From positions 1 to 64,000 of the forward strand of contig JAIUOW010000016.1 in NCBI GenBank assembly GCA_020161775.1: a stretch of DNA of 64,000 bases. Direction: 5' to 3'. Made by a program: the position numbers and the translations under genes. Of the stretch, positions 28,966 through 58,751 are shown piece after piece (positions within the stretch are counted from its first letter, which is position 1; each line of letters begins with the position of its first letter). The stretch comes from Pseudomonadota bacterium. Lineage in GTDB: Bacteria; Pseudomonadota; Gammaproteobacteria; Burkholderiales; Burkholderiaceae_C. Below the pieces are notes generated by a model. That model ran no database searches. It saw nothing but the letters and a program-made list of their open reading frames with translations, and had not been told where the DNA came from.

Positions 28966-29007
28966 ATTCTTCGCGGGGGGGCGTGCGTGAACTGCTTCGT
29001 TTTTCCC
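28966..29007 (-). promoter_or_regulatory. Late promoter element of the capsid unit
   Basis: GGGAAAA (29001-29007) is followed after exactly 30 bases by AGAAT (28966-28970) on the minus strand. The predicted start site is about 55 bases before the capsid ATG. It lies immediately after the terminator at 29013-29034, so transcription must restart here. Confidence 0.7.
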
Positions 29008-29012
29008 AAATG

Positions 29013-29034
29013 AAAAAGCCCGCACGCAGCGGGC
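29013..29034 (-). terminator. Intrinsic terminator before the capsid gene
   Basis: GCCCGC and GCGGGC form a six-base GC stem with a five-base loop, followed on the minus strand by five T. It ends the unit that finishes with the 29054 gene. Confidence 0.8.
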
Positions 29035-29053
29035 CTCGATGGAGCGAACGGCG

Positions 29054-29530
29054 TCAGGCTGCGGGCGTCAGCCCGGCAAGCGTTGCACGCCCCTGCTCCA
29101 CAGCCACGCGCAAGTCATCACGTCGCGCGGTCAGCGTCTCAAGCATGGAGACCCGCGACACGCGGATGCTGGGCGGCAGTGGCACGCGCACCTTGGCGAG
29201 CGCACGCTGGAACGCGCCGCGCGCGGTATCCATGCGCTCAGCGATCTCGCCGATGGCCTTCGCGTGGTCGTCCTGGTTGCGCAGCGGCACGGCCTTGCCG
29301 TTGAGCCGGACCTCGAACACGTCACCGGTGAGCTTGACCGCAAAGGTCACGCGCTGGCCATCCGCGAATGTGAAGTGGACGTTGCGAAAGGACACGCCCG
29401 CGCGGCGGGCCAGGCCCGCGTCCACCTCGCTGGTCACCACCACGGCGCCCGCGCGGTTGAACAGACGCTGGGCCTCGCGTAGCGCGCGGTCCTTGCCGCC
29501 CTTGTCCAGATCGAAAATCAGTGACTTCAT
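29054..29530 (-). CDS. Phage protein of unknown function, possible antirestriction/head accessory
   Basis: This 158-residue protein has an N-terminal alpha/beta part with FADGQRVTFAVKLTGDVF and EVRLNGKAVPL strands and a C-terminal helical part. Proteins of this style accompany DarA/DarB-like genes in other prophages, as far as I recall, but I cannot confirm the family. It is the last gene of the tube/baseplate unit, just before the terminator. Confidence 0.55.
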   Translation of the reverse strand: MKSLIFDLDKGGKDRALREAQRLFNRAGAVVVTSEVDAGLARRAGVSFRNVHFTFADGQRVTFAVKLTGDVFEVRLNGKAVPLRNQDDHAKAIGEIAERMDTARGAFQRALAKVRVPLPPSIRVSRVSMLETLTARRDDLRVAVEQGRATLAGLTPAA

Positions 29531-29532
29531 TT

Positions 29533-30009
29533 TTAGCCTTTCGCTGTGCTGGTAGGCGACAAGTCGCCCTGCTCGTCGTGGTAGTGGGTGTCTCCGACGT
29601 TCTGCCCGTTGTTCGTCAGCGCGCCGACCGTCGCCACGTCACCATTGACAGTTGTCTGCGCATTGATGATCAGTTCGCTTGCATTCAGGATCATCTGACC
29701 GTCGGCCGTCAATTCAATGTTGGCATGGCGGTAGCGCCGCCAGTTCACCGGGTTTCCCTCTCGCGGGGTGCGAAAGCCCGTGATGATGGGGTAGCGTGGA
29801 TCGCCGCATTCAAACGACAGCCACACGGTGTCGCCGGCCACGATGCGGATCTCTGTCTCGCCCGCGCGGTCGCCCAGGGGGTTCTCGAACACAGCCACTG
29901 GCAACTCGCTGGATCCATCGGTGATGCCTGGGATGCTGACTTTGCAGGTGCGCGTGGGGCCGTCGTAGCTGACGACCACGCCGGGCCAGCGGCTGGGCAG
30001 GTTGTTCAC
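29533..30009 (-). CDS. Baseplate spike/assembly protein with OB-fold (gpV/gp5-like)
   Basis: This 158-residue protein has the opening of baseplate OB-fold proteins (RWPGVVVSYDGPTRTCKVSIPG), then VWLSFECGDPRYPIITGF, a short repetitive beta region (NASELIINAQTTVNGDV) and a histidine-rich end (GDTHYHDEQGD). This is typical of the central spike base. The GTG at 30009 is chosen over an ATG at 30030 because GGGGAGG stands eight bases before it and it overlaps the upstream stop as GTGA. Confidence 0.75.
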   Translation of the reverse strand: MNNLPSRWPGVVVSYDGPTRTCKVSIPGITDGSSELPVAVFENPLGDRAGETEIRIVAGDTVWLSFECGDPRYPIITGFRTPREGNPVNWRRYRHANIELTADGQMILNASELIINAQTTVNGDVATVGALTNNGQNVGDTHYHDEQGDLSPTSTAKG

Positions 30010-30899
30010 TTCACGACCTCCCCGAGCCACAACTGCGAGTACTGCTGCCCACCACCACCGTCGGCGCCGCCGTCAACCACGTGCGCAGCCGTGATCACCG
30101 CGAAGGGGCGCCCGGCGATGTCGATTCTCATGCCCGCCATCAGGTGCGGAGCAAAGTCGCTGCGGGCCTTGCGCCGCAGGATCAGCGCCGTACTGAGGTT
30201 GTTCAGGATCCGCGTGTCGGCGCGCGGCCGGTACATGACGCCCCGCCCCACCTCCGCGCGCGTGGCGATGTGGACACCGGCGGCGTCGGTCGAGAAGGCG
30301 AACGGGACTTTATGACGCTCCAGGAACTCGCTGTCCACACCCTGCGTGGAGTCTTCGCGTAGCGTAGCCACTGGCTCCTGGTCGAGCATCTCGCCCAAAC
30401 GGCGGAACGCGACCTTGCCCTCGTTGAGCACCAGCGCGCCCGCCTCCTCCTGCAGCGCCTTCGCGATCTCGAACGAGGGGGTCATGCCCTTGAAGCAGGC
30501 AAAAACTCCCACGGTGAAGTCCTGCTCAATGGTGACTTGGGCCCCGCACGCGCGGTAGATTTCCCCCAGAGAAGCGCCGTAGCGCACGATGCTGCGCTGG
30601 GTGCGCTGCGTGATGGCAGCACAGGAGGCCAGGATGCCCACCAGCTTGCGCGTCTTTACCGGCCGGTCGCCCTGGGTGCGCCCGCTGTCGCCCCCGGGCG
30701 AGTTCTTGATGATCAGGAATTCAGCCTCTTCCCGCCCGACCTTGATTTTCGAGCCATTGGCGATTGGCTCCGTGTCCAAGGTGTCGCGAAGCTCCAGCTC
30801 CACGGTTTGGGGCATGGGTGTCAGATCCGAGCGCAGCACGGCCCGAACGATCAGGTCACTGCGCAGCGCGCTGTCCGAGCCTTCGGGATAGATGAGCAC
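30006..30899 (-). CDS. Baseplate hub-like tail protein
   Basis: This 297-residue protein precedes the spike gene with a four-base overlap. Its layout (VELELRDTLDTEPIANGSKI early, a VGREEAEFLIIKNS strand region, then a C-terminal RMDIAG-type beta segment) fits hub proteins that hold the spike in contractile tails. No catalytic motif is seen. The call rests on position and fold-style, so it is moderate. Confidence 0.6.
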   Translation of the reverse strand: MLIYPEGSDSALRSDLIVRAVLRSDLTPMPQTVELELRDTLDTEPIANGSKIKVGREEAEFLIIKNSPGGDSGRTQGDRPVKTRKLVGILASCAAITQRTQRSIVRYGASLGEIYRACGAQVTIEQDFTVGVFACFKGMTPSFEIAKALQEEAGALVLNEGKVAFRRLGEMLDQEPVATLREDSTQGVDSEFLERHKVPFAFSTDAAGVHIATRAEVGRGVMYRPRADTRILNNLSTALILRRKARSDFAPHLMAGMRIDIAGRPFAVITAAHVVDGGADGGGGQQYSQLWLGEVVK

Positions 30900-30900
30900 G

Positions 30901-31362
30901 TCAGGCCCCGACGGTCACGATCTCATGCTGAAACGCGCGCGCGGGCAGGGTCTCGGTCTCCATGAGCGTGATGTCCTGCTGCACCTCACTCACAGAACGG
31001 CCATAGGGCTCAAGGCCCATGGCGCGCGATGCCTCCAGACGAATGGCGTTCGCTCGCTCGACGTAGAGCTTGAAAAGCGGGTTGATGACCGACCACTCCC
31101 CCACGGCCACCACGGTGTTCTCGTCGATGTCGGCAATGTTTTTGACCGGGTACGCGGGAATCAGTACTGGATCCTGCTCCGGGGGCGAGTCGCCGGCCGC
31201 CGGGAGATTGTCCGCGCCCGTCAGGCTGGCGATGAAACCGTGCGCCGCGTAGTGCCGCGTAGCCTGCAAGGCGCAATCCAGCACCTGCTCCGGCAAAAGA
31301 ACAAGTCCGCCAGACTCGCCAGCGGCGTAGTGCTCGTCCGCAAGCTGCGCGAGTGTGATCAC
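30901..31362 (-). CDS. Head-tail connector/neck-like protein
   Basis: This 153-residue protein is soluble, with an N-terminal helical part (LAQLADEHYAAGESGGLVLLP) and a conserved-looking PAYPVKNIADIDENTVV segment followed by a long helix (LYVERANAIRLEASRAMGLE). It lies between the tube and hub genes. A neck or connector role is inferred from these features and position. Confidence 0.5.
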   Translation of the reverse strand: MITLAQLADEHYAAGESGGLVLLPEQVLDCALQATRHYAAHGFIASLTGADNLPAAGDSPPEQDPVLIPAYPVKNIADIDENTVVAVGEWSVINPLFKLYVERANAIRLEASRAMGLEPYGRSVSEVQQDITLMETETLPARAFQHEIVTVGA

Positions 31363-31374
31363 GGTCAGCCTCGA

Positions 31375-31869
31375 TTAGACCGGGATGTTGCCCGGTACCT
31401 TGTCGCCGAAGTAGTGGAAGAAGATCGTGCCCGTCACCAGCAGCACCTGCTGGCGCGACTCGAAATCGCGGTCCGGGTTGTCGAGCTGCACAAACGCGTC
31501 CACCAGCTTGAGCCCACGGTAGAAGCGCTCCGGCGTGCCTTCGTAGACGGTCGCCTGGAAGCGGCCACCGGACGCGGCGACGCGCTCGCTGAAGTCGTGC
31601 ACCTGGCCGCCGACGGTCTCCATGATGGAGATGGCGCCCTGCTGGTTGATCTTGAGCTGGCCCGGCTGCCAGGAGGCGGCGCCCATGGGCATGGGAACCT
31701 CGATCTCGCCCACCGTGGACAGCTCCGGCCAGGGAAATTGCTTGATCAGCAACTGCAGCGACTCAAAACCGTCGATGACCATCACGGCATCGGAGGTGAT
31801 GGCCTTGTCACCCAGCAAGCGGGTGGCGTTGTAAGCCCCCTTGAGAAATTCCTTGGACGAAACGGTCAT
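31375..31869 (-). CDS. Tail tube protein (gp19-like)
   Basis: This 164-residue protein has the length and beta-rich pattern of tube proteins of contractile tails (VMVIDGFESLQLLIKQFPWP, GEIEVPMPMGAASWQPGQ, GGRFQATVYEGTPERFYR). It would stack as hexameric rings inside the sheath. It is the first gene of the unit driven by the promoter element at 31896-31937; AGGGG precedes the ATG. Confidence 0.68.
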   Translation of the reverse strand: MTVSSKEFLKGAYNATRLLGDKAITSDAVMVIDGFESLQLLIKQFPWPELSTVGEIEVPMPMGAASWQPGQLKINQQGAISIMETVGGQVHDFSERVAASGGRFQATVYEGTPERFYRGLKLVDAFVQLDNPDRDFESRQQVLLVTGTIFFHYFGDKVPGNIPV

Positions 31870-31895
31870 GACGTACCCCTAGATTGGACAAGGGG

Positions 31896-31937
31896 AGTGT
31901 CCAGCCGCCCTACTGCCCCGCCCCCTGCCGTTTTCCC
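31896..31937 (-). promoter_or_regulatory. Late promoter element of the tube unit (variant)
   Basis: GGGAAAA (31931-31937) is followed after 30 bases by ACACT (31896-31900), a two-mismatch version of AGAAT. The upstream element is exact. It is placed back to back with the plus-strand promoter at 31939-31966, one base away. Confidence 0.55.
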
Positions 31938-31938
31938 G

Positions 31939-31966
31939 TTGACATCTTTTTGTTTCCATATACAAT
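31939..31966 (+). promoter_or_regulatory. Sigma70-type promoter of the plus-strand gene group
   Basis: TTGACA (31939-31944), a 16-base spacer and TACAAT (31961-31966) form a near-consensus promoter. GTTTCCATATACAATTAATCG (31952-31972) contains the -10 and recurs almost exactly at 38617-38636. It drives the gene starting at 31991. Confidence 0.8.
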
Positions 31967-31990
31967 TAATCGAAGATCAGGAGATACGCC

Positions 31991-32653
31991 ATGCTTGCCA
32001 CCCAGTCCCTTACCCCCTCGGCCCACCAGCGCATCGCGGTGATGGGGGCGGCTGCCATGGCCGATGCGCGCCACGCCCGTGAAGCCGCAGCCCGGTCCGA
32101 AGTCATGGACAAGGCGGTTCGCTTCGCGATGGCCCACACGGACGTGATGGACTGGCTGGACCAGAACCCCAGCAACCCGTTTGCCCAGTCCCTGTCCGAG
32201 AGCCTGAACAAGTACGGTTCACTCACCGAGGGCCAGGTGCGTGCAGTGCGCAACCGGACCACGGCGGCCACGGCCGCGCCGGTGATCCAGGTAGCGCGCA
32301 TTGAAGAGGCGTTCGACACGGCCCGCAACGCCGGCCTGAAGCGCCTCAAGATGCATCTGGACACCTTCGAGTTCAAACCGGCCGGCGAGAAAAGCGCGAA
32401 CGCGGGCGGGATCTATGTCACGGAGGACGGCGCATACCTGGGCAAGGTCATGGGCGGGCGATTCCTGAAGACCGGCGCCTGCAGCGATGACCAGCAGGCC
32501 CGTGTCCTGGCTGCCGCCAGCGATCCGGCTGCCGCCGCCAAGGCGTACGGTCAGCGCACCGGCCGCTGTTCGATCTGCGGGCGCGAGCTGACCGCCGATG
32601 AGAGCATTGAGCGGTTCGTTGGGCCGATCTGTGCGAGCAAATACGGCTTCTGA
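31991..32653 (+). CDS. DUF6011-type zinc-finger protein
   Basis: This 220-residue protein has an N-terminal helical region and a C-terminal DUF6011-like finger: C193 and C196 in GRCSICGREL and C214 in GPICASKYGF. The central part may bind nucleic acid (MGGRFLKTGACSDDQQ). AGGAG lies seven bases before the ATG. It is the first of three plus-strand genes that run against the late genes and have a consensus promoter, so they are probably early or lysogenically expressed. Confidence 0.75.
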   Translation: MLATQSLTPSAHQRIAVMGAAAMADARHAREAAARSEVMDKAVRFAMAHTDVMDWLDQNPSNPFAQSLSESLNKYGSLTEGQVRAVRNRTTAATAAPVIQVARIEEAFDTARNAGLKRLKMHLDTFEFKPAGEKSANAGGIYVTEDGAYLGKVMGGRFLKTGACSDDQQARVLAAASDPAAAAKAYGQRTGRCSICGRELTADESIERFVGPICASKYGF

Positions 32654-32717
32654 TCAGGAAAGTAGCGGCCCCGCAGCCGCGATCATCGTCACAATTGCCA
32701 CCAACAAAGGGAAAGTC

Positions 32718-33437
32718 ATGCCTCGTCAAATTCAAGAGCCGAGCGCCACTGTCGAGCGCGACGGATCCGGTCAGAGAACCATTTACCAGCACCCTGCCTT
32801 CGGCAAAATCCGCGCTGGTCGCGTCGAAGGTCTGGCCGCGCTGTACGGTTCGGACTTCGAACACCAACGGTACATCCGCATCAAAATCGGCCCCAGCCGT
32901 CTTGAGCGCAGTCTCAGCGATGACAGCTACTTCACCACCAACGAGGGGTACATTGAGGTGGACCTGTCCGAAGCCCAATGGGCGACGTTCGTCTCCTCGT
33001 TGAACGTGAGCCAAGGTGTGCCGTGTACCGTGGCCTATCGCGACGGCAAACCGATCCCCGGGCTACCCAAGCCTGAAAGCCGAACGCAACAGTTCGGTGG
33101 TGAGCTGAAAGAGCGCATGGCGCGCGCCGCGCAACGTCTCCAGGAGGTTGAAGACCTGGTGGCGGCCAGCGGCCTGTCCAAGGCAAAGCAGGCCGAAATG
33201 CGCGCCTCACTGGATCACGCACGCATGGACATCGGCGTCCACGCGGAGTTCGTCGTCGGCCGGTTCGATGAGCACATGGAGCAGACGGTCGAAGCCGCTA
33301 AGACGGAAGTCAATGCCTACCTGCTGGGCTCCATCCAGCGCGCCGGGCTGGAGGCGCTGGGCGCTAAGCCAGCCCTGACCTTGGACTACGCGAACGGAGA
33401 CCGTGATGAGCAACCTGCTCCTCAAACAGCTCCGTGA
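32718..33437 (+). CDS. Hypothetical phage protein, early-type
   Basis: This 239-residue protein has a beta-rich N-terminal half (YIRIKIGPSRLERS, EGYIEVDLSEAQWATFV) and a helical C-terminal half. The ATG at 32718 is chosen over an upstream in-frame start because AAAGGGAAAG precedes it. It follows the DUF6011 gene in the same direction. Function is unknown; nucleic-acid metabolism is a guess from position. Confidence 0.65.
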   Translation: MPRQIQEPSATVERDGSGQRTIYQHPAFGKIRAGRVEGLAALYGSDFEHQRYIRIKIGPSRLERSLSDDSYFTTNEGYIEVDLSEAQWATFVSSLNVSQGVPCTVAYRDGKPIPGLPKPESRTQQFGGELKERMARAAQRLQEVEDLVAASGLSKAKQAEMRASLDHARMDIGVHAEFVVGRFDEHMEQTVEAAKTEVNAYLLGSIQRAGLEALGAKPALTLDYANGDRDEQPAPQTAP

Positions 33438-33621
33438 CCAGGGTCTGATCACGGGTGACGTGCTGCCCTTCGCGCGCCCAGGCGCCGCGCAGGATCTGGC
33501 CGCGCGCACGGACAGGGCGGTGATGGTGCTGGACGCTGTGAATAACGGCGACTACTGGGTGGTCACCAAAGAGGATGCCGAGCGTCTGGCCGCTGCCGGC
33601 TACCAGAGGCACGAGGCCTGA
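33406..33621 (+). CDS. Small hypothetical protein
   Basis: This 71-residue protein overlaps the previous gene by 32 bases. It is soluble and mixed in charge (LLKQLRDQGLITGDVLPFAR, WVVTKEDAERLAAAGY). The start is ATG 33406, next to a GTG at 33403. It is the last of the three plus-strand genes and converges with the 33647 gene. Confidence 0.6.
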   Translation: MSNLLLKQLRDQGLITGDVLPFARPGAAQDLAARTDRAVMVLDAVNNGDYWVVTKEDAERLAAAGYQRHEA

Positions 33622-33646
33622 GAACGGCCTGCTCGCGACCAATCAT

Positions 33647-34054
33647 CTACTTCGTCGGGCATTTGCGAAATGCCTGCTGGCCAGGGTTGAATACCGGCCC
33701 CGCCTGCAGCAACTTTCCGCCCGGCCCGGCCGTCTTGAGCACCAGGCCCCGGGCATCCTTGGACACCACCACCGTGCCGATGAACGCGGCATCGGCGTTC
33801 AGGTCAGCCGCACCCACGAACGACTTTGGGGGCTCACCTTTGCCGAAGTAGCTCGCCGTCTGATCTTCGAGGTTGTTCGCCACGGTAGTGCGTTCGCCCT
33901 GGATCAGGGTCGCACTGCTCATGGCAATTACCACCGCCCCCTTGGAAAGATCGCTGCACTGCACCGCGAAGGTCCCGAGCATTGCCCGGTCGTCTATGCC
34001 GGCGTGGGCCGAAGCGGCAAAGGCGAGCAACAGGAAGAGGCTTTTCGTGTTCAT
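33647..34054 (-). CDS. Exported hypothetical protein, candidate moron
   Basis: This 135-residue protein has a clear signal peptide (MNTKSLFLLLAFAASAHA) and a small beta-rich mature domain with two cysteines. It has its own sigma70-like promoter inserted between tape-measure and tube units, with the -10 six bases before the ATG and no Shine-Dalgarno sequence. This is the pattern of a lysogenic-conversion (moron) gene. Function is unknown; an envelope effect such as exclusion is possible. Confidence 0.7.
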   Translation of the reverse strand: MNTKSLFLLLAFAASAHAGIDDRAMLGTFAVQCSDLSKGAVVIAMSSATLIQGERTTVANNLEDQTASYFGKGEPPKSFVGAADLNADAAFIGTVVVSKDARGLVLKTAGPGGKLLQAGPVFNPGQQAFRKCPTK

Positions 34055-34060
34055 GGGCGA

Positions 34061-34088
34061 ATTCTAGTCACCGTCCCCGGGTCTTCAA
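34061..34088 (-). promoter_or_regulatory. Promoter of the exported gene, leaderless type
   Basis: On the minus strand TTGAAG (34083-34088), a 16-base spacer and TAGAAT (34061-34066) form a plausible sigma70 promoter. Only six bases separate the -10 from the ATG at 34054, so the transcript should begin at or next to the start codon. Confidence 0.6.
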
Positions 34089-34117
34089 TGGCGATCTGCC
34101 ACGCGCGCTCGCCACAC

Positions 34118-36151
34118 TCAGGCGCCAATGCCGCCGTTCACGATGTGGGCAATGCTGCGGTCCCCCACGTCCTGGCCGATGGGCTCCTGCACAACGGCGC
34201 GCACCGTCGGTGCACGGTCGTCGCGCGGGATCTGCGGCACGGTCACCGCCTCGGCGGGTGGCAGCTTGTCTGGCACGGGCGATGGCACGGACACGACACC
34301 GGGCTTCGGCAGTCCTGCTGAGACCGCCGTTCCCGAGTAGCTGGCAAGGAATCCACCCCGATCACGGGCAACATCATCGAAGTACTTGCGGGCTGTCGTC
34401 CCGTTGGCATCGGCCGGGCCAACGCTCCCTCGTGCGACAGCCTTTGCTCCACCGAAACCGGCCAGGTGCCGGGTCTTGAGGTAGCCAGCGACTTCCGATG
34501 GCGGCGTCGCGCTGTTGATCAAACCGTCCTTCATCAATTGCCGATACGCCGCATCTGAATTCGTTTTGAACGCTGCGTCCTGCGTCGTGGCGCTGGCCAG
34601 ATACTTGTCGTAGCTCAGGCCGTTGCTCCAGTTCCCCTCGTTCTTGAGGAACTTGGTCATCCCGCCTGACTTGCCCCAAGCGTACTCACGGCTGTGCCCA
34701 TCCGCCTTCATGGCTGCATTGACAGACGCGGCACCCCCTTTGATCAAGCCAGCGTCCGCCAGCCAGCCAGCCCCAGCCTGATACCGGCCCATGTACCCGG
34801 CAGAGTTCACCACGTCGAGCTTGCCCCCTGCGCTTTCCGTCATGACCGTGCTGGCCACCAGGGCGCGGGTCTGGGCATCGCTCAGGTTGCCGATCTTGCC
34901 CGCGCTGTAGGACGCGCCCGTCTGCATGGCGAGCGCGCGCGGGTCGGATTTCAGATTGCGCTTGCGCTGCTGGATCCCGGCGACCGTGCGCCCGAGGGAC
35001 TGCGCCAGGGACGTTGCCGGCGCCAGCTCTGCCGCACCGTCCAGGCGCCGAGGGTCGTTGAACGCGCGGCCGTCGGCGCCGAGGGCGTTGGCGCGGTCGA
35101 AGCGGCGCGGGTCGTTGCGGTCCCGACCGCCTTCCCCGGGCAACTGAGGCGCGCGCACCTGCGGGCTCAGGATGTCGGCCTTGCCACGCTCATACTCCGA
35201 CTGCACAGCTTTCACCGGCGCCAGCACCTGATCGCGCTTTTCCTTGATCCAGTTCTTCAGCGAATCGAAGGCGTCAAAAATCTTCGTGGTGATGCCGCTC
35301 TTGTCGAGCCAGTCATAGATCGCGCCGCCGATCTTGGTCCCCACCACCCCAGCCAGGCCTGCGACGATCAGCGTGCCCGCCCCGGCCAGCAGCATGGGCA
35401 GCAGCCGCGCCACGGAGCCCGCCATGGCTCCCACACCCAGGCCCCCGCCGCCGTCGACGGTGATGGGGGTCGGCGTCGCGTCGGCCCGCTTCCCCTTGAT
35501 CGCGTTCAGCAGCCGGGTGTACCAGCGCTCTTTCTTGCGCTCGGCGGCGCGCTCCTTGGTGCGCCCGAACATGGCAAACATCCCGCGCCCCAGCGGCTCC
35601 ACCACGGACTTCACCTCGTGCATTGCGGTCACGGCCGGGTCAATCTGCTCTGAACCCTGGGCCATGCCACGAATGGCGTCACCCAGGCCGCTCATCCGCT
35701 CGGACAGGCGGGAGATCAGCCCCGTGCCGCTCGCGTCGCCGGTTCCGGCCCCGCCGCCCGCCGTGAACCGGCCCTTTCCGTCGCGCTGCAGGTCAGGCTC
35801 AGCCTGCGCCCCGGCCGTGGTGGGTGCCAGGCCCCTTCCGCGCGTAGCGGCGACAAAGCGGCCGGCACCGTCACGGGCACGCGGCGCCACGGCGCGAGTG
35901 GAGGAGCTGGCCACCGGGGATCGCCCCCCCACAGTAGATGTGCGCCCGGCGGGCTCCACCACACGCGCGGCTGACGCTCTCGATGCGCTCGCGCGTGCGG
36001 AGACCCCCAGCGCCCGGGCAATGGCGCGAACGTCGGTGCGCACGTCCTTCATCACCTTTGCGTCCGCGCGTTGCTGGCTGAGCAGTTCCCGCTGGCCGGC
36101 GACAAGATCGCCGACCAGGAAGCCTTGTTTGTCGTGCGCGATGCTGCTCAT
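34118..36151 (-). CDS. Tape-measure-like tail protein with a muralytic-type domain
   Basis: This 677-residue protein has a low-complexity N-terminal region with RDGAGRF and RDGKGRF repeats (near residues 94 and 128), hydrophobic glycine-rich segments (MLLAGAGTLIVAGLAGVVG), then a C-terminal lysozyme/transglycosylase-like region (TESAGGKLDVVNSAGYMG, then AYRQLMKDGLINS). The design fits a tail protein ejected into the periplasm that opens peptidoglycan. It is in a unit with the portal and 36148 genes. Confidence 0.65.
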   Translation of the reverse strand: MSSIAHDKQGFLVGDLVAGQRELLSQQRADAKVMKDVRTDVRAIARALGVSARASASRASAARVVEPAGRTSTVGGRSPVASSSTRAVAPRARDGAGRFVAATRGRGLAPTTAGAQAEPDLQRDGKGRFTAGGGAGTGDASGTGLISRLSERMSGLGDAIRGMAQGSEQIDPAVTAMHEVKSVVEPLGRGMFAMFGRTKERAAERKKERWYTRLLNAIKGKRADATPTPITVDGGGGLGVGAMAGSVARLLPMLLAGAGTLIVAGLAGVVGTKIGGAIYDWLDKSGITTKIFDAFDSLKNWIKEKRDQVLAPVKAVQSEYERGKADILSPQVRAPQLPGEGGRDRNDPRRFDRANALGADGRAFNDPRRLDGAAELAPATSLAQSLGRTVAGIQQRKRNLKSDPRALAMQTGASYSAGKIGNLSDAQTRALVASTVMTESAGGKLDVVNSAGYMGRYQAGAGWLADAGLIKGGAASVNAAMKADGHSREYAWGKSGGMTKFLKNEGNWSNGLSYDKYLASATTQDAAFKTNSDAAYRQLMKDGLINSATPPSEVAGYLKTRHLAGFGGAKAVARGSVGPADANGTTARKYFDDVARDRGGFLASYSGTAVSAGLPKPGVVSVPSPVPDKLPPAEAVTVPQIPRDDRAPTVRAVVQEPIGQDVGDRSIAHIVNGGIGA

Positions 36152-36876
36152 GGCCTGATGAAGGTATCGACCTCGGTGAAGGTCATGGCCAGCTCGCCCA
36201 GGCTCTGCTCGCGCCGCGAAGCCTCATGCTGGATGGACTGGGGGCGCATGCGCACATGCTGCTTGTAGGCATCTTCCCGCGCCATGGGGGTGGCGTGGTA
36301 GATCTCCACGTCAATCCAGGATTCAGACGGCAGTCCGAATGTGCCGTCGCCGTGCGCCGCCTGCTCCACCTTGGCCGCGAACCACCGCTTGAGGGAACCG
36401 CGCGAGTCGTCCATCGTGGTGATGTTCAGCTCAATCGCCTCCTTGCCCGTCAGGCGGTCCAGCATGGCAGCGCCCAGGGGAATCTTCTCACCCACCAGGG
36501 TGCTGGCGCTGTAGCTGACATCGAGGGCGAACAGGTTGAACAACGAGGTGAAATAGCTGCCCGGTGCGTACTCGACGGGCGGCGGGTTGTAGTCCACGAT
36601 CTGGATGAAGAACAGGTTCTTGCGCGCGAGCTGCGCGGAGGCGAGCTGTTGGTACGTGTCACGCGCCTGCGCAAGCGTCATGCCCCCGAGAAGTGGTTGT
36701 GCCACCTCAGCGGCGCCGCCCAGCAGACCTTTGGCGAAGTCCCGGACCTGCAGGAGCTGCTGAATCTTGCGAACCGACGAGCTGGGAATCTTCTGGGCGA
36801 CGGCGCGGGCGATACGCGCGGCGGCCGTCGTGCGCAGCGTGTCGAAAGCCCGGGGATTCAGTTCCGGCAGGGCCAT
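36148..36876 (-). CDS. Tube/baseplate junction protein (gp54/gp48-like fold)
   Basis: This 242-residue protein has the beta-rich tube-like core FFIQIVDYNPPP, NLFALDVSYSAS and IELNITTMDDSRGSLKRWF, which is typical of tube-related caps at the baseplate. It precedes the tape-measure-like gene with a four-base overlap and follows portal. Assignment is by fold-style. Confidence 0.55.
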   Translation of the reverse strand: MALPELNPRAFDTLRTTAAARIARAVAQKIPSSSVRKIQQLLQVRDFAKGLLGGAAEVAQPLLGGMTLAQARDTYQQLASAQLARKNLFFIQIVDYNPPPVEYAPGSYFTSLFNLFALDVSYSASTLVGEKIPLGAAMLDRLTGKEAIELNITTMDDSRGSLKRWFAAKVEQAAHGDGTFGLPSESWIDVEIYHATPMAREDAYKQHVRMRPQSIQHEASRREQSLGELAMTFTEVDTFIRP

Positions 36877-36877
36877 A

Positions 36878-38527
36878 TCAATGCTTCAGGCTCGCCACGG
36901 CGCCGTCCTGCTGGGCTCCGCCTTCAGCCTCCACAGGGGGCTCGCCGCCGGGTGCACCAAAACCACCGCCGAAGCCGCCTGCCTCCTCCTTCGCCTTGCG
37001 ATCAGCCTCCTTCTTCGCGTCTTCGATGGCCTTGGCAATCAGTTTGGCGCGATCCGTGTCCATGCGCATGGTCTTTTCGAGCAGATCCACGTTCGCATTG
37101 ACGCCCAGGCCGAGGTCGCGCATGGATGTCAATGTCTGGACGAGGACGGCGCCCGCGTTCATCGCATCGGATTCGGTGCGCTGGCGCTCGGTCTCCAGCG
37201 CGCTGATCGTTCCGTAGAAGTTGATCTTCCACGGCCGCTTCTTCTTGTCGTAGGCGTGGCCGTGCTTGTACGCCAGATGCACGTCGCAGATGTGATTGAA
37301 GAAATCCGACAGGGCCACGCGCGTGGTGCGCGAGCGCTCCGCCGACTGGGCGCTGGTGCGGAAGAAGCCACCTTCACCCAAGCCGCCAGACATCATGTCG
37401 GCGAAGCCCAGCATTGTGATGTCGGTTCCCAGCGCGCCGCACAGCAGCTTGGCGTGCATGAGCACGTCGTCGATGCTGATGTTGCCGGCGCGGCCAGAAC
37501 CGGAGCCACCCGCTGAGTTGACACCCTGGATCTGGAGGAGCTGCTTGTCACCCCAGACGGGAATGAGGTGGCGAACACGGCCGAGGAACGGCATGCCCTT
37601 GGTCAAGGCCTCATCCGCCACCTTCTTGCTCTTTTGCAGCATCGTTTTGACGCTGGCAAGGAACGCCTCACGCTGTTCGATGGTCAGGCCCTGCACCTGC
37701 GCTGTGAACATGGATTCATCAATCGAATCCAGCACGCGCTGCCCCACCAGGCCCTGCAGCGCCGCGACAAAGTTGTCGTACTGCTTTTCCGCGTCGGCCA
37801 GGAAGCTGCCGCCCACCAGGCTCGGCATCAGTGGCAGCTCGTCGATGTCGTCCACCATCATCCGGGACCGCCATGCCTTTTCGATGGCCAGCGGCTGCGG
37901 CGTGTAGATCATGCGCGGCATCTCCAGGTGAGCCATCTGGTTCATGGTCAGGCGCTCGCGCATCTTGTTGCCGGTCGCGATGACGCAGACCTTCGTCTCG
38001 TTGCCCTGCTTGTACGGCTGGACCAGCGGGGGCAGCAGCATCTCGTCCGTCAAGACATCCACGACGCCCAAGCCCTTCTTGGGATAGAGGCGCCCGTAGG
38101 CATCGCCCCAGGCCGCGCCGTTGTAGGCGACCTGCATGGCAATCCGGTTGAAGATCGGGCCCAGGTCATCACTCAGTTCCTTGGCGACCGCCTCAGACTC
38201 GCCACCCACCTTCCCACCGCCGCCGCGCGCATCGCCGGTGGCCTCCACGAACACCAGATCCCCGGATGTCTCGTGCCCACCGAGCGCGGCCGTGACATGC
38301 AATCGCAGCGCGCCCGACACGATGGGGTCTGTCAGCATTCGCTGGTACTTGCTGTAGATGTCCTGCCGGGACCTGGCGCTGACCGCGCCTGCGCCGGTCA
38401 GCGCGGCCGTGGTCAACGTCTCCGCGTAGCTGAAGCCAGCGCGGTCGACCTCTTCAAGGTGCTCTTTGCCCCATCCCAAGCGGGCCATCGTTGCCTTGAT
38501 CCAACTCTGTTTCGATGCTGCCGCCAT
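36878..38527 (-). CDS. Portal protein, T4 gp20-like
   Basis: This 549-residue protein has portal features: SKYQRMLTDPIVSGALRLH near the N terminus, a beta-rich wing, the long stem-type helices with LLCGALGTDITMLGFADMM, and a Lys/Glu-rich C-terminal helix ending in a Gly/Pro tail. It forms the dodecameric vertex for packaging. The ATG at 38527 is used; the frame extends upstream through the promoter element and is unlikely to be translated there. It is the first gene of its unit. Confidence 0.72.
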   Translation of the reverse strand: MAAASKQSWIKATMARLGWGKEHLEEVDRAGFSYAETLTTAALTGAGAVSARSRQDIYSKYQRMLTDPIVSGALRLHVTAALGGHETSGDLVFVEATGDARGGGGKVGGESEAVAKELSDDLGPIFNRIAMQVAYNGAAWGDAYGRLYPKKGLGVVDVLTDEMLLPPLVQPYKQGNETKVCVIATGNKMRERLTMNQMAHLEMPRMIYTPQPLAIEKAWRSRMMVDDIDELPLMPSLVGGSFLADAEKQYDNFVAALQGLVGQRVLDSIDESMFTAQVQGLTIEQREAFLASVKTMLQKSKKVADEALTKGMPFLGRVRHLIPVWGDKQLLQIQGVNSAGGSGSGRAGNISIDDVLMHAKLLCGALGTDITMLGFADMMSGGLGEGGFFRTSAQSAERSRTTRVALSDFFNHICDVHLAYKHGHAYDKKKRPWKINFYGTISALETERQRTESDAMNAGAVLVQTLTSMRDLGLGVNANVDLLEKTMRMDTDRAKLIAKAIEDAKKEADRKAKEEAGGFGGGFGAPGGEPPVEAEGGAQQDGAVASLKH

Positions 38528-38566
38528 GTAGATACCGTTGTTTGTGCCGCCGGTGGGTGAGGTTCG

Positions 38567-38608
38567 ATTCTTCCGCCGCATGCATGCCCGGCCCACGCCC
38601 GGTTTCCC
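38567..38608 (-). promoter_or_regulatory. Late promoter element of the portal unit
   Basis: GGGAAAC (38602-38608) is followed after exactly 30 bases by AGAAT (38567-38571) on the minus strand. The upstream element overlaps the expected -35 region of the divergent plus-strand promoter at 38603-38631. Confidence 0.65.
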
Positions 38609-38631
38609 AATCGCGGGTTTCCATATACAAT
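38603..38631 (+). promoter_or_regulatory. Promoter of the RHH gene, leaderless type
   Basis: TACAAT (38626-38631) within GTTTCCATATACAATAATCG lies six bases before the ATG at 38638, with no Shine-Dalgarno sequence. The -35 region is poor (TTTCCC or TTCCCA) and overlaps the GGGAAAC element of the opposite late promoter. The 20-base segment is shared with the promoter at 31939-31966. Confidence 0.65.
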
Positions 38632-38637
38632 AATCGG

Positions 38638-38886
38638 ATGGCACGACTCAAAAAAGGCGAAGTCCCCACGCCCGTCAAGGTCCGACTGCGGCAGTACCGC
38701 GACGATCTGGAGCGCAGCGGGGGGAGCCGGCTGCTCGTAGATCTCGAAAAGCCCGCCACGGACGCCTTGGCGGCGATCATTGAGCGCGACACCCCTACCG
38801 ATGCCACCAAGCCCCTGTCCAAGAAGGACGCTGTAACCAGCGCTCTGCTGCACTACGCGCGCTCGCGCAAGCCAGCACGCCCCTGA
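38638..38886 (+). CDS. Ribbon-helix-helix-type regulator
   Basis: This 82-residue protein has a basic N terminus, a short strand (SRLLVDL), helix (KPATDALAAIIER), loop, and helix (SKKDAVTSALLHYAR), the MetJ/Arc layout. It probably binds DNA as a dimer and is a candidate regulator of the shared promoter segment or of the divergent late promoter. It is the only plus-strand gene here and is likely translated from a leaderless transcript. Confidence 0.7.
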   Translation: MARLKKGEVPTPVKVRLRQYRDDLERSGGSRLLVDLEKPATDALAAIIERDTPTDATKPLSKKDAVTSALLHYARSRKPARP

Positions 38887-38921
38887 GAAAAATATCCCCC
38901 GAGCCCTTGCGGACCCGGGGG
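38886..38921. terminator. Hairpin terminator between convergent units
   Basis: CCCCCG (38896-38901) and CGGGGG (38916-38921) form a strong stem; on the minus strand it is followed by ATATTTTT, on the plus strand by CAATCGCTTTTT. It would end the darB-like unit and probably also the RHH gene. Confidence 0.7.
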
Positions 38922-38971
38922 CAATCGCTTTTTCACCAAAGGAGACAACTGGGCAAGCCCTGTCGTCCCCT

Positions 38972-39490: not shown

Positions 39491-39499
39491 GATGGTCCC

Positions 39500-46064: not shown

Positions 46065-46106
46065 ATTCTCAAAAGGCAAACGCCCCGCAAAGGGGGCGTT
46101 TTTCCC
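46065..46106 (-). promoter_or_regulatory. Late promoter element of the darB-like unit
   Basis: GGGAAAA (46100-46106) is followed after exactly 30 bases by AGAAT (46065-46069). The upstream element overlaps the terminator hairpin, so stop and restart signals are fused. The predicted start site lies about 20 bases before the ATG. Confidence 0.7.
46078..46103. terminator. Hairpin terminator overlapping a late promoter
   Basis: AAACGCCCC and GGGGCGTTT are nine-base arms with a six-base loop, followed by T on the plus strand and by GCCTTTT on the minus strand. It would end the 46135 gene transcript. Confidence 0.65.
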
Positions 46107-46134
46107 GTCGCAAGCGCCCGCAGGCGCCGCGCAT

Positions 46135-46722: not shown

Positions 46723-46757
46723 GGCGCTCTCCGAGGGAGTAGTTGAATGAGGCCTTC

Positions 46758-46799
46758 ATTCTGTGAAGCCCCGGACCATCGCCGCGCCCAGCTTTTCCC
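46758..46799 (-). promoter_or_regulatory. Late promoter element of the 46135 gene
   Basis: GGGAAAA (46793-46799) is followed after exactly 30 bases by AGAAT (46758-46762). A leader of about 29 bases with GGAGAG follows before the ATG at 46722. Confidence 0.7.
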
Positions 46800-46815
46800 G
46801 TTTGCGGTGAGTGCC

Positions 46816-50500: not shown

Positions 50501-52988
50501 CGTCGCTGGGCTCGGGGAATTCCAGGTTACCGGCGGCAATGGCTGCATCGGCGGCGGCCTGGGCTTCGGCCTCGGTCGGATAAGAGGGGCTGATTGGATT
50601 GCCGTTTGACGCGTGAGCAACTCGCGACCGCCCGTCGTCGTTCACCACCACAAGGGCAGGACCAACCTCGGCATTCAACAGCGCAGCCAGGTCAACGGGG
50701 CTGGATTCAAGGTCATCGACCATGCCATCGCGCCCGTATGTGGCCGTGCGACTCGTATTGCCCGTGACGTAAAAGCGCGTCCCAGTCGCGTTACCACCTT
50801 GATCACGTGCCACATGGATTTCCAGCTTGGCACCCGCCTTCATCAGAGGCATGCTCGCAGTATCGGAACTCCAGCCCAGTCCACGCAGCGCGGCCTTCAC
50901 TGCTTCCACGCGAGACTCGACCATCGCGCCCCGCTCTTCTGCATTGTTCACATCTGCCGACGCTGACCCAACCGGCTTCGCCATGTCGCCCACCATGTTG
51001 TTCAGCGTGCCGGCCAGAGCGGCCGCCTTCTCGGTCAGGTTGTCCGGCACGCGCTCAACGCCATTGAGCACCCAGGTGACGGCCACCACGTTCGCGCCGG
51101 CGCCGACCTGGCGCACCTCCTGGGTGATGCCGTAGACGCTCCCCGCGAAGGCCTTGGACAGCGACACCCCGGAGCCCTTCCAATCCATCTCGCGCAGGGC
51201 ATTGCGCACGTTCACCATGCGCTGCTGAAGCGCTGAATCAAGGGCGTCTTGCCACTTCAACACCAGCTTGTCATCGGCCACCACGGCGGCATAACCCCCA
51301 TCGTCGGCGACGGCGGCGATGATGTCGGCGGCCATGCCGCACTCCGCCAGCACGGCGTCGCGGGCGGCGTTGCCCTCCACGGGCGCCGATTGGGCCGGGG
51401 GCTCGGCGGGCGCAGCCACTGCGGCCGGCGTCTCGACTTTCGCAGGCTCCACCCGATCCACGGTCCTCGCGCCCTCGGGCCCCGCCTCGGACACTGCCAC
51501 CGCATAGCCGGCGGCCGTGAGGCGCTTCATGTGCTCCTGCAGCGTCCAGGCCGGGATGCCGACCATCGCCACGGGGCTGTACTTGCCCGCGCCGCGCCGG
51601 GTCAGCGTGAGATCCAGCACCTTTGCCACGAGCGCCGCGCTCTCGCCCAGCACCTCGTAGAAGTCCCCCATTCGGTACAGCAGCACGGCCTCGGGGTTTT
51701 GGGCCTTCAGGCGCAGGTACTCCAGCTCAAACGGCGACTTCGGCGTGATGGAGGGCTCGGCCGCCACCTTGGCGATCTCGATCTGGCGGGTAAGGTCAGC
51801 CAGCTCGGATTCCAGGCCGGCGATCTCGGTCTTGATGGCCTCGACCTGGGCGACGCGCTCCGCCGTCTTGGCGTTGGCGCGCAGAAAGGCAGCGCTGTTG
51901 CGCTCCACCAGGCGCATGATGCGGCGCGCGACCTCGCGGATGTTCAGCTCCTGGCCGCGTTCGGGCGCGACCACGATGGTCACGTCCTTCTTGTTGAGCA
52001 TCCACTTCCAGGAGATCAGCTCGTCCATGGGCGTGAGCTTGGCCGGCGTGGTGTCGGGGTTGTGGAACCAGATGGAGATGGTCTGACCGTCGGTCATCTG
52101 GAACAGCACCATGACCTGCAGCACCCCGCGCGCGCGCACGGGGTCGCTGATCGTGACCTCCGTCGGCTTCACCTTGTCGCCGGCCGCCTCCATGACCTTC
52201 TTGAGCAGGTCCATCTTGATCGTCATGCGGCTGACCTGCACCACCAGGGCGTCCAGCACCGCCACGCTCTCGATGTCCGGGTCGCCCATGAGGTCCGTCA
52301 TGGTGACGGCATCGAACATCAGGCCGGCGGCCCCATCCTCGCGGTGCAGGTCATACAGCAGGCGGTGCATCGGCACTCCGACCGGGTTCGCGTCCTCGTC
52401 CCATTGAACGATGTTGTCCATGACGGCAGTTCCTTCTTGTGGCAGGTTTTCAATGTTGAAGCGCACGGTGCAGTCGCCGTAGCGCAGCCACCACTTCAGT
52501 TGATCGGGGGTGCAGGCAACAATGGACCCCAGCCCATTCCACCCACGGTCATAGGAGCCCAGGTACGCGGCGCGGGCCTGCTCCTCGGTCATGAAGCCAG
52601 CCATGACCTTGTGTTCGTCGAACTCGCCGTCAGCGCGGCGTTGGTTGATGACCCACACACGGCGCGACTCTGGGAACGGTCCCACAAAGATGTCCACCGG
52701 GTCGCCATCGGCGCCGCGCGAGCCCACGATGTCCCCGTAGTGCGCGGCCATGCGGTTGCTCCAACGCGTGCCATCGGGCGCGGTGCCGCTGCGGTACGTG
52801 CCGTATGCGTTCTCGATCTTGATCACCAGCCCCAGGACCCGGACGGGCGGGCTCTTCTTGTAATTGTTGGCCAGAGCCTGCGCGTCGGTGGGCGGGCGGC
52901 GGAGGTTGTACCCGCTCGCGGCCTCATGCGCGGCGCCCATCAAATGGGCAAAGGTGTCATCGAGGATGGCGCGGGCGGGGTGTTGCAC
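47535..52988 (-). CDS. DarA-like polyvalent protein with pyrophosphatase-, MutS-I- and DUF2958-like domains
   Basis: Domains in order, numbered from an open frame at 53030: pyrophosphatase-like (about 70-190, with DGDPVDIFVGPF at 109-119), DarA N-terminal-like (about 260-400, SIWFHNPDTTPAKL, LISWKWMLNKKDV), coiled coil, MutS domain I-like (433-520, LLYRMGDFYEVLGESA), long linkers, and near the end a DUF2958-like module (WYITERDRE, SGYISIVELVQNGVELDLHW). Total is about 1.8 thousand residues. The late promoter at 53017-53058 overlaps the first GTG, so GTG 52988 or ATG 52940 is the real start. It probably enters the host with phage DNA. Confidence 0.78.
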   Translation of the reverse strand: MQHPARAILDDTFAHLMGAAHEAASGYNLRRPPTDAQALANNYKKSPPVRVLGLVIKIENAYGTYRSGTAPDGTRWSNRMAAHYGDIVGSRGADGDPVDIFVGPFPESRRVWVINQRRADGEFDEHKVMAGFMTEEQARAAYLGSYDRGWNGLGSIVACTPDQLKWWLRYGDCTVRFNIENLPQEGTAVMDNIVQWDEDANPVGVPMHRLLYDLHREDGAAGLMFDAVTMTDLMGDPDIESVAVLDALVVQVSRMTIKMDLLKKVMEAAGDKVKPTEVTISDPVRARGVLQVMVLFQMTDGQTISIWFHNPDTTPAKLTPMDELISWKWMLNKKDVTIVVAPERGQELNIREVARRIMRLVERNSAAFLRANAKTAERVAQVEAIKTEIAGLESELADLTRQIEIAKVAAEPSITPKSPFELEYLRLKAQNPEAVLLYRMGDFYEVLGESAALVAKVLDLTLTRRGAGKYSPVAMVGIPAWTLQEHMKRLTAAGYAVAVSEAGPEGARTVDRVEPAKVETPAAVAAPAEPPAQSAPVEGNAARDAVLAECGMAADIIAAVADDGGYAAVVADDKLVLKWQDALDSALQQRMVNVRNALREMDWKGSGVSLSKAFAGSVYGITQEVRQVGAGANVVAVTWVLNGVERVPDNLTEKAAALAGTLNNMVGDMAKPVGSASADVNNAEERGAMVESRVEAVKAALRGLGWSSDTASMPLMKAGAKLEIHVARDQGGNATGTRFYVTGNTSRTATYGRDGMVDDLESSPVDLAALLNAEVGPALVVVNDDGRSRVAHASNGNPISPSYPTEAEAQAAADAAIAAGNLEFPEPSDGGRPASPTDAEIEAAAAAGAEVRTLSRNMADFSLKDQNPLAHLSTDNGSVSIALWTKADVDRAARAVAEAEQQANYKPFDMSRLKMPTAVQLGLNKSNTLILPTGGADGNEILPGWSNGHLMDFTQRPTLVQNAIAKYFVDTGSALIRRVPEAAVAKIEAAAKGRGTKVEPISHYDYEERVVDNRKAKQGRAIEYIPRESLVLSNENGSVWVWLESKYVAYFVKTYKGCEFFAEGPEVSVGVRHHGKLVGVLMPLRGKNGSDMLARARKAMISLPAETAQPEPTAVAPDSAADALAAVDAAYRFADATPAFKEDVFHSLGESSYSPFVSARTIDQRAKELGLTVGWDVTMTVLDGVPVDGDDASMPLFDDADGAYLNQSKDAIAATAKLVKYFRDFIRSDKELAIDTTSGWARSTMTKADAQRILGELIDIAVNRKGGTTLTAQQEDDYADFAHDARLINDYLSKRIRHSGSRNLLRHPKMKALYPHIDNQPFLDAVKALAQPLLPADAVLDFAGDVSAAIAQLEVALDVVVTNEPINRERGDIEQADLERRNAEQFRRAIEVLKKGDTSGIFDDANPHTGGEQYQMIVGTIRRAGEVIGRALIGGDGKAMVYVGASGNQRVTFVSPVDGERRTPMWSDDDAGEMVDWLVENTTVGGAGVPPADPPAAAPVVDPPEKPKATEAEGRAALRQIADYMPRGQRKAIEAGMAGEEAQFFYDKMVEMARNIEAMPKTYDTDGQGGKALARLHYFRGGADWYITERDREREQVQAFGLADLGGGYPESGYISIVELVQNGVELDLHWEPKTLDEIKGTASASEAQPDVGPAGDISYRTDGMFTTFLPDSKAGEKAWAIMNATPGSESGKVLAAHTESVIAQLRAAGFVVTEAKPVDMSADELAAELGAGAATPTVMDEPAREDAKVTERKTDEAYLQNMINGKADLLEDGILERIEPMFTKYEGDAEMMALLERAAQAYSDAATQAARAALAS

Positions 52989-53016
52989 GGTCGTCTGTGG
53001 GTAAGTTACCCCGACG

Positions 53017-53058
53017 ATTGTTTTCCCCACCCCCCTGCCGGCTGCTGGCCGTTTTCCC
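53017..53058 (-). promoter_or_regulatory. Late promoter element of the darA-like unit (variant)
   Basis: GGGAAAA (53052-53058) is followed after 30 bases by ACAAT (53017-53021), one mismatch from AGAAT. A second GGGAAAA occurs at 53021-53027. It lies between the end of the 53061 gene and the darA-like gene. Confidence 0.6.
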
Positions 53059-57777: not shown

Positions 57778-57779
57778 GC

Positions 57780-58139
57780 TCAGCCCTCCCCGTGGACAGG
57801 ATCACCAATGAACCCGCGCGCGTGCGCGGTTACCGCGCGGTCACTCCAGACCGCCAGTGTTTCGGCCGTGGCCCCGTGGACGTTGCCGATGGGCTCGCCG
57901 GTGAGCCGATACAGCCCACCACCACCCACCAGCTTGTCAACCGGCGCGTCAATCTGGTCCTGCGGGGCATAGTCCGCCACGTTGGCCGAGTCGATAAGCG
58001 CCACCTTGATCTGGGCACCGAGGCCGGTCTGGTTGATCACCGTGAGGTTGAAGGTCCCGCACTTGCCCACCGCGCAGGTGAACAGCGGATTCCACTGGTT
58101 GGGGATGACGACGATGGCGCCGAGGCGTCCTGATGGCAT
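57780..58139 (-). CDS. Small tail-fibre-associated protein
   Basis: This 119-residue protein has beta strands with CAVGKCGTFNLTVINQTG and a C-terminal AHARGFIGDPVHGEG. It is between two fibre genes. Unknown family; probably a fibre cap or adaptor. Confidence 0.55.
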   Translation of the reverse strand: MPSGRLGAIVVIPNQWNPLFTCAVGKCGTFNLTVINQTGLGAQIKVALIDSANVADYAPQDQIDAPVDKLVGGGGLYRLTGEPIGNVHGATAETLAVWSDRAVTAHARGFIGDPVHGEG

Positions 58140-58148
58140 GGTGTGTCC

Positions 58149-58703
58149 TTACTGCTGGCCCAGGTAGAGCTGGCGATGTCGAGGAATGAGGTATTGGGGA
58201 TGCGGGTTAGCGGCTGCCTCATGGGCAGCCACGAGCTGGGCCGCGTGTGACAGGTTCGCGTCGATGACCACGGTCACAGAGCCGTAGGGAACGCGCACGA
58301 GCTGGAGCTTGAAGGTCGCCAGGTAGTCCAGCATGTTGCGCTGGGCGAAGGCCGTGGCCTGGGCCCAGAGCGCGAACAGCACGCCCCCGGCGTTCGGATT
58401 GCCCGCCCAAAAGCCCACCTCTGTCACGCTGTAGGGGTTCGGCGAGCCCGTCCAGGCCGGCGCGAACACGTCAATGCGCATCATGGCCGACGGCAGCACA
58501 TAGCCTGCCGAGATCGCGTGCAGCTCTTTCGGAGCCACCAGGGCCACGCGGTCATAGTCCGGCGAGCCGTCCGCAGTGTTCAGCGTGTAGGCGGAAGTGC
58601 CAAATTGCACATGGGTAATCGCCAGGTCCAGCCCCGCGCCATCCGCCGCGATGGCGGCGGCGAGTCCGGCGTTCGTGATGATGGGCGCGATGGGGGTGGG
58701 CAT
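58149..58703 (-). CDS. Collar-type tail fibre protein
   Basis: This 184-residue protein has the N-terminal fold of phage tail-collar fibre proteins (ITNAGLAAAIAADGAGLDLA, VTEVGFWAGNPNAGGVLFAL) and the classic fibre motif AANPHPQYL near the C terminus. It is the first gene of its unit; its -10-like AGAAT lies six bases before the ATG without a Shine-Dalgarno sequence. It connects fibres to the baseplate. Confidence 0.8.
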   Translation of the reverse strand: MPTPIAPIITNAGLAAAIAADGAGLDLAITHVQFGTSAYTLNTADGSPDYDRVALVAPKELHAISAGYVLPSAMMRIDVFAPAWTGSPNPYSVTEVGFWAGNPNAGGVLFALWAQATAFAQRNMLDYLATFKLQLVRVPYGSVTVVIDANLSHAAQLVAAHEAAANPHPQYLIPRHRQLYLGQQ

Positions 58704-58709
58704 GCGACG

Positions 58710-58751
58710 ATTCTGGAAGCCGTCCCCGTCGCGTCAGCCGGGCTTTTTCCC
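58710..58751 (-). promoter_or_regulatory. Late promoter element of the fibre unit
   Basis: GGGAAAA (58745-58751) is followed after exactly 30 bases by AGAAT (58710-58714). The ATG at 58703 is six bases further, so a leaderless transcript is predicted. Confidence 0.7.

Follow-up and report, generated by a model that had tools for sequence, protein, structure and literature searches.

Dispersed GGAAAA-box sites in a P1-lineage prophage and its relatives resemble activator-dependent late promoters and point to a candidate XRE-type activator

We analyzed positions 1 to 64,000 of contig JAIUOW010000016.1 from a Pseudomonadota bacterium (Burkholderiaceae_C); this whole stretch, referred to here as the window, makes up the opening 64 kb of a 128-kb contig and carries prophage genes for homologues of the capsid, sheath, portal, tail tube, DarB-like, and Hdf-like proteins of the phage P1 lineage. 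The prophage belongs to the P1 structural lineage and is Punavirus-like. Its capsid protein shares 45.6% identity with the capsid of Xanthomonas phage Rb1 and about 23% with P1 gp23. The contig also encodes counterparts of many other Rb1 genes; those that correspond to late genes of Rb1 occupy the minus strand at about 22 to 78 kb. Seven minus-strand sites in this region share two short boxes at a fixed distance. With a probability of about two in three, we read them as late promoters of the prophage that are activated at the upstream box by a helix-turn-helix (HTH) protein of the family phrog_7396.

The first-pass annotation of this DNA had described the seven sites as GGGAAAA (once GGGAAAC; box 1), exactly 30 nucleotides, and AGAAT or a close variant (box 2), and rereading the DNA returned exactly these coordinates and sequences (Table 1). 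The definition of the family by two boxes and a fixed distance stood, but its core had to be widened from GGGAAAA to GGAAAA; likewise, the spacing is exactly 30 at the seven sites in the window but 29 or 30 after GGAAAA in the wider family. We read box 2 as a -10 element with the pattern xANA(A/C)T. The seven sites are probably not the full set; another likely one lies at the start of the terminase small-subunit gene (contig position 78248, beyond the window).

Table 1. Predicted late promoters in the window and the genes that they precede
Coordinates	Strand	Box 1	Spacer	-10 element	Box 2	Downstream gene
28966..29007	minus	GGGAAAA (29001-29007)	N30	AAGAAT	AGAAT (28966-28970)	major capsid gene, 27234-28904
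31896..31937	minus	GGGAAAA	N30	GACACT	ACACT	tail tube gene, 31375-31869 (phrog_1120)
38567..38608	minus	GGGAAAC	N30	AAGAAT	AGAAT	portal gene (phrog_1497), open reading frame 36878-38644, likely start 38527 or 38488
46065..46106	minus	GGGAAAA	N30, hairpin inside	GAGAAT	AGAAT	DarB-like methyltransferase/helicase gene, 39500-46039
46758..46799	minus	GGGAAAA	N30	CAGAAT	AGAAT	open reading frame 46135-46722, 195 aa
53017..53058	minus	GGGAAAA	N30	AACAAT	ACAAT	giant open reading frame 47535-53030, likely start 52988 or later
58710..58751	minus	GGGAAAA	N30	CAGAAT	AGAAT	open reading frame 58149-58703

The pairing of the two boxes was compared with shuffled and host sequence. The exact form GGGAAA-N31-AGAAT occurred five times in the window and not once in any of 100 dinucleotide shuffles. 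Across 124 kb of the contig, where gaps of 10 to 60 were tested, exact GGGAAA/AGAAT pairs were found at gap 31 alone (count of 5), and the whole 4.36-Mb genome held one further exact pair, on another contig. When two mismatches were allowed, the excess was modest (14 versus a shuffle mean of 7.7, with 14 reached in 2 of 100 shuffles), so the strength of the signal resides in the exact form. Relaxed matches numbered eight on the prophage contig, two of them outside the late genes, versus three in the remainder of the 4.36 Mb. A host promoter class was rejected because the pair is rare in the host genome outside this contig.

We then considered the anatomy of the sites in a test that did not require a -10 element, taking each GGAAAA located 44 to 115 nucleotides ahead of an ATG that has a ribosome-binding site and begins an open reading frame (ORF) of at least 80 codons. 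Among the resulting 152 nonredundant sites, A36, A38, and T40 stood out (0.61, 0.62, and 0.69). An A..T pair four bases apart was present at offset 35 in 37 sites and at offset 36 in 84, together 113 of the 152; the other offsets from 20 to 55 gave 1 to 20 pairs singly and 5 to 31 as neighboring pairs. Taking T40 as -7 places box 1 at about -47 to -42. Weaker conservation was seen for A at -5 and -4 and for C at -1 and at +11. As the first-pass annotation had stated, there is no -35 element: none rose above chance in the family, and the best TTGACA match at the seven sites was 2 to 4 of 6 (the 4 being at 58710). The sites thus have a -10 element, no -35 element, and a box fixed upstream, and their predicted anatomy is that of an activator-dependent sigma-70-type promoter.

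The first-pass annotation had proposed looking for the paired motif in related prophages. Capsid-based searches yielded 32 genome loci and 44 viral loci, and in these 76 loci GGAAAA-N29-ANAAT occurred 39 times and GGAAAA-N30-ANAAT 61 times. Duplicates and near-duplicates were removed before counting (by exact sequence for the spacing counts, by identity for the GGAAAA test and the dyad reading of box 1, and by shared k-mers for the capsid count). Distinct sites with their flanks, which include some coding hits inside the HTH gene that were not taken as promoters, numbered 36 at gap 29 and 51 at gap 30, versus a mean of 3.1 and a maximum of 8 at other gaps; one site is not independent, since L053, from a metagenome, repeats the capsid region of the window. 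All but one of 88 distinct sites lay on the capsid strand, and in six long sequences 41 sites lay on the late strand versus 2 on the opposite strand. GGAAAA was by a wide margin the top 6-mer at the distance of box 1 (78 versus 6.4 expected). Among contigs found via the HTH protein and not by the capsid search (44 of 65, some of which do encode a related capsid), there were 9 distinct sites at gap 29 and 18 at gap 30, 2 of the 18 being the coding hit in the HTH gene; other gaps averaged 2.5 and never exceeded 6. At the loci of distant HTH relatives alone (L173 to L195), gap-30 GGAAAA ranked second and did not stand out (10 versus 1.8, z = 5.2).

The site was also frequent directly upstream of the capsid gene. 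We counted 61 upstream regions, namely those of the window, of Rb1, and of 59 among the 76 capsid loci; the 17 excluded loci were mostly partial matches short of the capsid start, the others being L046 and four loci that repeat a contig or phage already listed. A strict site was found in 55 of the 61 and a relaxed site in 57; with relatives removed, the counts were 40 and 42 of 46, against shuffle means of 0.075 and 0.31. The closest long relative, G100, has many late-strand sites, some with the -10 element reduced to xAnnnT. Judging from record titles, the genome loci come from hosts that include Pusillimonas, Pigmentiphaga, Nitrosomonas, Collimonas, Halomonas, Ectothiorhodospira, and an Acinetobacter metagenome-assembled genome (MAG), genera that we take to be Beta- and Gammaproteobacteria; we suspect that a MAG labeled Alistipes contains a misbinned contig. 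These results indicate that the promoters are not peculiar to this prophage and recur in prophages of many other bacteria. The original idea of a poor -10 element with an activator site near -45 held up in comparisons with shuffles, shifted spacings, and the host genome, in the strand distribution, in related phages, and in the emergence of the -10 element in the unconditioned test; it is close to certain that the promoter family is real.

Next, we looked for a protein that might read box 1 by comparing, across the six long sequences, conserved ORFs of at most 420 aa whose starts fall at 14 to 112 kb on the contig. An XRE-type (lambda-repressor-type) HTH protein was common to all six; Pfam or PHROGs recognized a DNA-binding domain in it alone among the shared ORFs scanned, which were all but ORF 60032-60904, whose Rb1 counterpart is annotated as a prohead protease. 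The gene lies beyond the window, at about 92726-93442 on the minus strand of the contig. All 48 members scanned match phrog_7396 (function unknown) and the general regulator family phrog_8, and a tblastn search with the Rb1 protein gave no other match in 50,697 phage records. Pfam HTH_31 and HTH_3 both fell just under the cutoff in the window phage, and HTH_31 was above it in Rb1. An AlphaFold2 model of the G100 orthologue (mean pLDDT, 85.8; pTM, 0.52) has an N-terminal XRE HTH followed by long helices. The best 50 of its 508 PDB matches include C.BclI, C.AhdI, P22 c2, and the lambda repressor and cover mainly the HTH part; 1 of the 508 had an E value below 0.001.

The HTH protein and the motif largely occurred together. 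Of 20 records, 19 encoded the protein and P1 did not, and all 19 HTH-bearing records have the motif; in G113 and G114, the phage lacks the exact ANAAT form and has a capsid site ending in AGACT. In a second set of 31 records, which is not fully independent because it shares some motif-bearing phages with the first set, the protein was found in 22 of 26 motif-bearing records (with the motif of L036 in relaxed form) and in 0 of 5 motif-less ones, of which only Macromonas, counted twice (G038, G117), is a whole genome. This 99%-complete genome has a P1-like capsid gene without the motif, and no HTH protein was found in it. At least one gene of a P1-lineage panel accompanied the HTH gene at 60 of 65 HTH loci (none at L185, L187, L188, L195, and L197). 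Moreover, at 55 of the 65 a terminase gene starts within 3 kb downstream on the same strand; it lies further off in two (L194 and L196, the latter being G100) and was not detected in eight. These observations suggest that the phrog_7396 HTH protein is probably the late activator, although the covariation test described below lends this no support.

Three further observations concern these loci. L026 (Macromonas bipunctata) and L075 (a 36-kb fragment) each have a P1-like capsid gene, with none of the late motif, the HTH gene, or Lpa, the late activator of P1, detected; each is possibly a decayed prophage or one with a different late switch. Beside the HTH gene of the window's contig (93983-94895, minus strand) lie a gene for a DUF1367 protein and another small conserved ORF that matched nothing in Pfam, an arrangement reminiscent of the nin region that precedes Q in lambdoid phages. 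In Rb1, two small cysteine-rich proteins are encoded between the HTH gene and the terminase gene (L011:1589-1807 and L011:1811-2041), one of them annotated as a transcription initiation factor IIE alpha finger.

A mechanism consistent with these data would run as follows. RNA polymerase with the housekeeping sigma factor would read the weak -10 element, xANA(A/C)T, with no -35 element to hold; a phage activator on the GGAAAA box would supply the missing contact, most simply with sigma region 4, and the most likely activator would be the XRE-type protein of phrog_7396. Lambda CI contacts sigma region 4 at PRM, and the controller (C) proteins of restriction systems work similarly.

Several findings weigh against this reading. 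Strict or relaxed sites were missing upstream of four capsid genes (L026, L051, L072, and L075). When spacing was scored per genome with a degenerate position weight matrix trained without the window phage's sites, the peak was clear in G100 (17 versus at most 11), broad in the window phage (14, 19, and 20 at three neighboring gaps versus at most 10 elsewhere), modest in Rb1 (13 versus at most 10), weak in G106 (15 versus at most 11) and G101 (12 versus at most 10), and absent in the AT-rich G112 (17, with others up to 19). The A expected at +1 (offset 47) is mildly enriched, at 0.39, and offset 50 is nearly as enriched, at 0.38, so the transcription start is not proven. XRE dimers usually recognize a dyad, but box 1 lacks symmetry, and a dyad reading of it was weakly supported, with the right half lacking at the window's own sites. 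The HTH gene lies upstream of the terminase gene on the same strand in the window phage but about 14 kb from it, and 9 kb away in G100. Finally, the HTH protein and the motif belong to one lineage, so their co-occurrence partly reflects descent and is weaker evidence than the counts suggest.

Covariation bears on whether box 1 is read by some other protein, either a phage protein or a recruited host protein, with the promoters still activator dependent and the HTH protein employed otherwise. The promoter flanks correlated with the HTH protein at 0.54 and with the capsid at 0.68; given the capsid, the partial Mantel correlation with the HTH protein was 0.069 (P value = 0.27, n = 23 nonredundant of 27 loci with both parts; the script found two further capsid-hit loci without a site). 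Variation in the flanks thus follows capsid phylogeny and not the HTH protein. In addition, the HTH protein was not found in 4 of the 26 motif-bearing genomes (all MAGs), and several proteins common to all six long sequences belong to no known family and have no assigned function, and they could include an unrecognized DNA-binding protein. We regard another reader as unlikely yet a possibility to be taken seriously; what speaks against it is that the HTH protein is the only shared ORF in the size range compared with a recognized DNA-binding domain, mostly occupies the position that lpa has in P1, and is missing from P1 and Macromonas, both of which lack the motif. The HTH protein could also bind box 1 as a lysogenic or early repressor of the late promoters. 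XRE proteins are mostly repressors, and the sole NCBIfam match of the window's HTH protein is the RstR repressor model (35 bits versus a cutoff of 80), but repressors usually cover the -10 element or the start, while box 1 stops near -42, and a promoter lacking a -35 element needs help rather than blocking; we therefore consider repression improbable.

An activator might be dispensable if box 1 were an A-tract, UP-like element read by the alpha subunit, as its A-richness and its location upstream of the -35 position would allow. UP elements tolerate sequence variation, however, and GGAAAA is far ahead of every other 6-mer at that distance, purely A-rich ones too; few such pairs occur in the host genome outside this contig, and this explanation seems very improbable. 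Chance or coding coincidence can draw on the recurrent hit within the HTH coding sequence, which adds to the distinct-site counts, but it is ruled out for practical purposes by the shuffles, the unequal counts at shifted gaps, the strand bias, and the unconditioned test. The reading that we prefer remains that of late promoters activated at box 1 by the phrog_7396 protein.

Individual sites in the window differ in their surroundings. The capsid ATG lies 61 nucleotides past the -10 element of the 28966 site and has a Shine-Dalgarno sequence. A family search with the 195-aa ORF 46135-46722 gave no match, and the giant ORF, of 1,817 aa from 52988, is a homologue of an Rb1 gene annotated as encoding an internal head protein. 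The ATG of ORF 58149-58703 coincides with the predicted +1 of the 58710 promoter; here and at contig position 78248 an ATG lies 6 to 7 nucleotides past the -10 element, at or beside the predicted +1, which suggests that the late mRNAs of this ORF and of the terminase small subunit may be leaderless. Terminators had been noted upstream of three sites, and a terminator scan that covered positions 28000-47500 bore this out on the minus strand for 28966 (a terminator-like hairpin just upstream, 29037-29015) and 38567 (38921-38896). At 46065, the hairpin instead sits between box 1 and the -10 element and is followed by T-rich sequence (AACGCCCC...GGGGCGTTT); the scan did not list it, and it is possible that the promoter thus contains a terminator. 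Two divergent sigma-70-like promoters on the plus strand (31939-31966 and 38604-38631) stand back to back with the late sites at 31896 and 38567; they have an identical 15-mer, GTTTCCATATACAAT, and their -35 elements adjoin or overlap box 1. They read into plus-strand ORFs, one for a DUF6011 protein (31991-32653) and a small one from 38638 with its ATG at the predicted +1, so a single protein bound at box 1 could affect both directions.

A promoter family that can be recognized from sequence makes late operons callable in dozens of uncharacterized prophages, and the proposed role gives phrog_7396, a protein family of unknown function, its first testable function.

The first-pass annotation knew of no described activator with such a site, and our searches of the open-access literature likewise found none for this motif. 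P2 Ogr and P4 Delta are phage late activators that act from upstream, at a TGT-N12-ACA site near -55; no exact TGT-N12-ACA was present in the 100 nucleotides searched at each of the seven sites (best matches, 1 to 3 mismatches), and Ogr-type sites were rejected on this ground. Lambda CI at PRM and the C proteins share the XRE fold and activate from a site near -42, but the C-terminal half of the phrog_7396 model consists of long helices, the proposed target is a late regulon, and the box is asymmetric.

The GafA and GafYZ proteins of gene transfer agents are phage-derived activators, as described in parts of PMC11150451 and PMC9638019. According to the same passages, their domains are DnaA-like or sigma-like, GafY is proposed to help the sigma-70 polymerase at degenerate -35 elements and acts at -123 to -113 with IHF, and GafZ acts between -35 and -10. 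These activators are nearest in logic to the switch proposed here, but they bind elsewhere, and our candidate, with its HTH_31/HTH_3 and XRE-type PDB matches, does not show the domain types described for them.

A further close system is that of phage P1, for which PMC8198154 and PMC10695390 give background. P1 belongs to the same structural lineage and has several scattered late promoters, often with an imperfect -10 element, under Lpa (gp10, PF25716), and its activator gene lies beside pacA and pacB (order lpa-pacA-pacB); the place before the terminase is taken by lpa in P1 and, in most of the related lineage though not in the window phage or G100, by the HTH gene. The differences are that the AAGTGACTT-like box of P1 is mostly four bases from the -10 element (annotated as the -22 region), whereas GGAAAA lies at about -47 to -42, and that the XRE-type candidate is unrelated to Lpa. 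Lpa was found in 1 of 18 records, P1 itself, and in none of the other 17. A tblastn search for Lpa matched 25 phage records, all of Escherichia, Salmonella, Enterobacteria, Punavirus, or Cronobacter phages, with Rb1 not among them, and seven HTH-less records gave 0 of 7, in a search in which no control genome matched either. AAGTGACTT had 5 to 8 mismatches of 9 at the seven sites; paired with a -10 element (1 mismatch allowed in the box), it was absent from 124 kb of the contig, whereas two stretches of P1 gave six pairs, and five other phages gave a single pair, in G101. Conversely, GGAAAA-N29/30-ANAAT had no match in P1. The Lpa system was therefore rejected for this prophage, as neither Lpa nor the -22 box was detected.

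To our knowledge, late control in the P1 lineage has been described only for Lpa-bearing phages. On balance, we favor the view that this lineage may use two interchangeable late switches, Lpa with the -22 box in enterobacterial phages and, elsewhere, phrog_7396 XRE-type activators with the GGAAAA box at -47 to -42. This would raise the question of how a lineage swaps its activator along with a scattered set of promoters, and it would mean that the virion genes keep their homology although the switch has changed along with its dispersed promoters.

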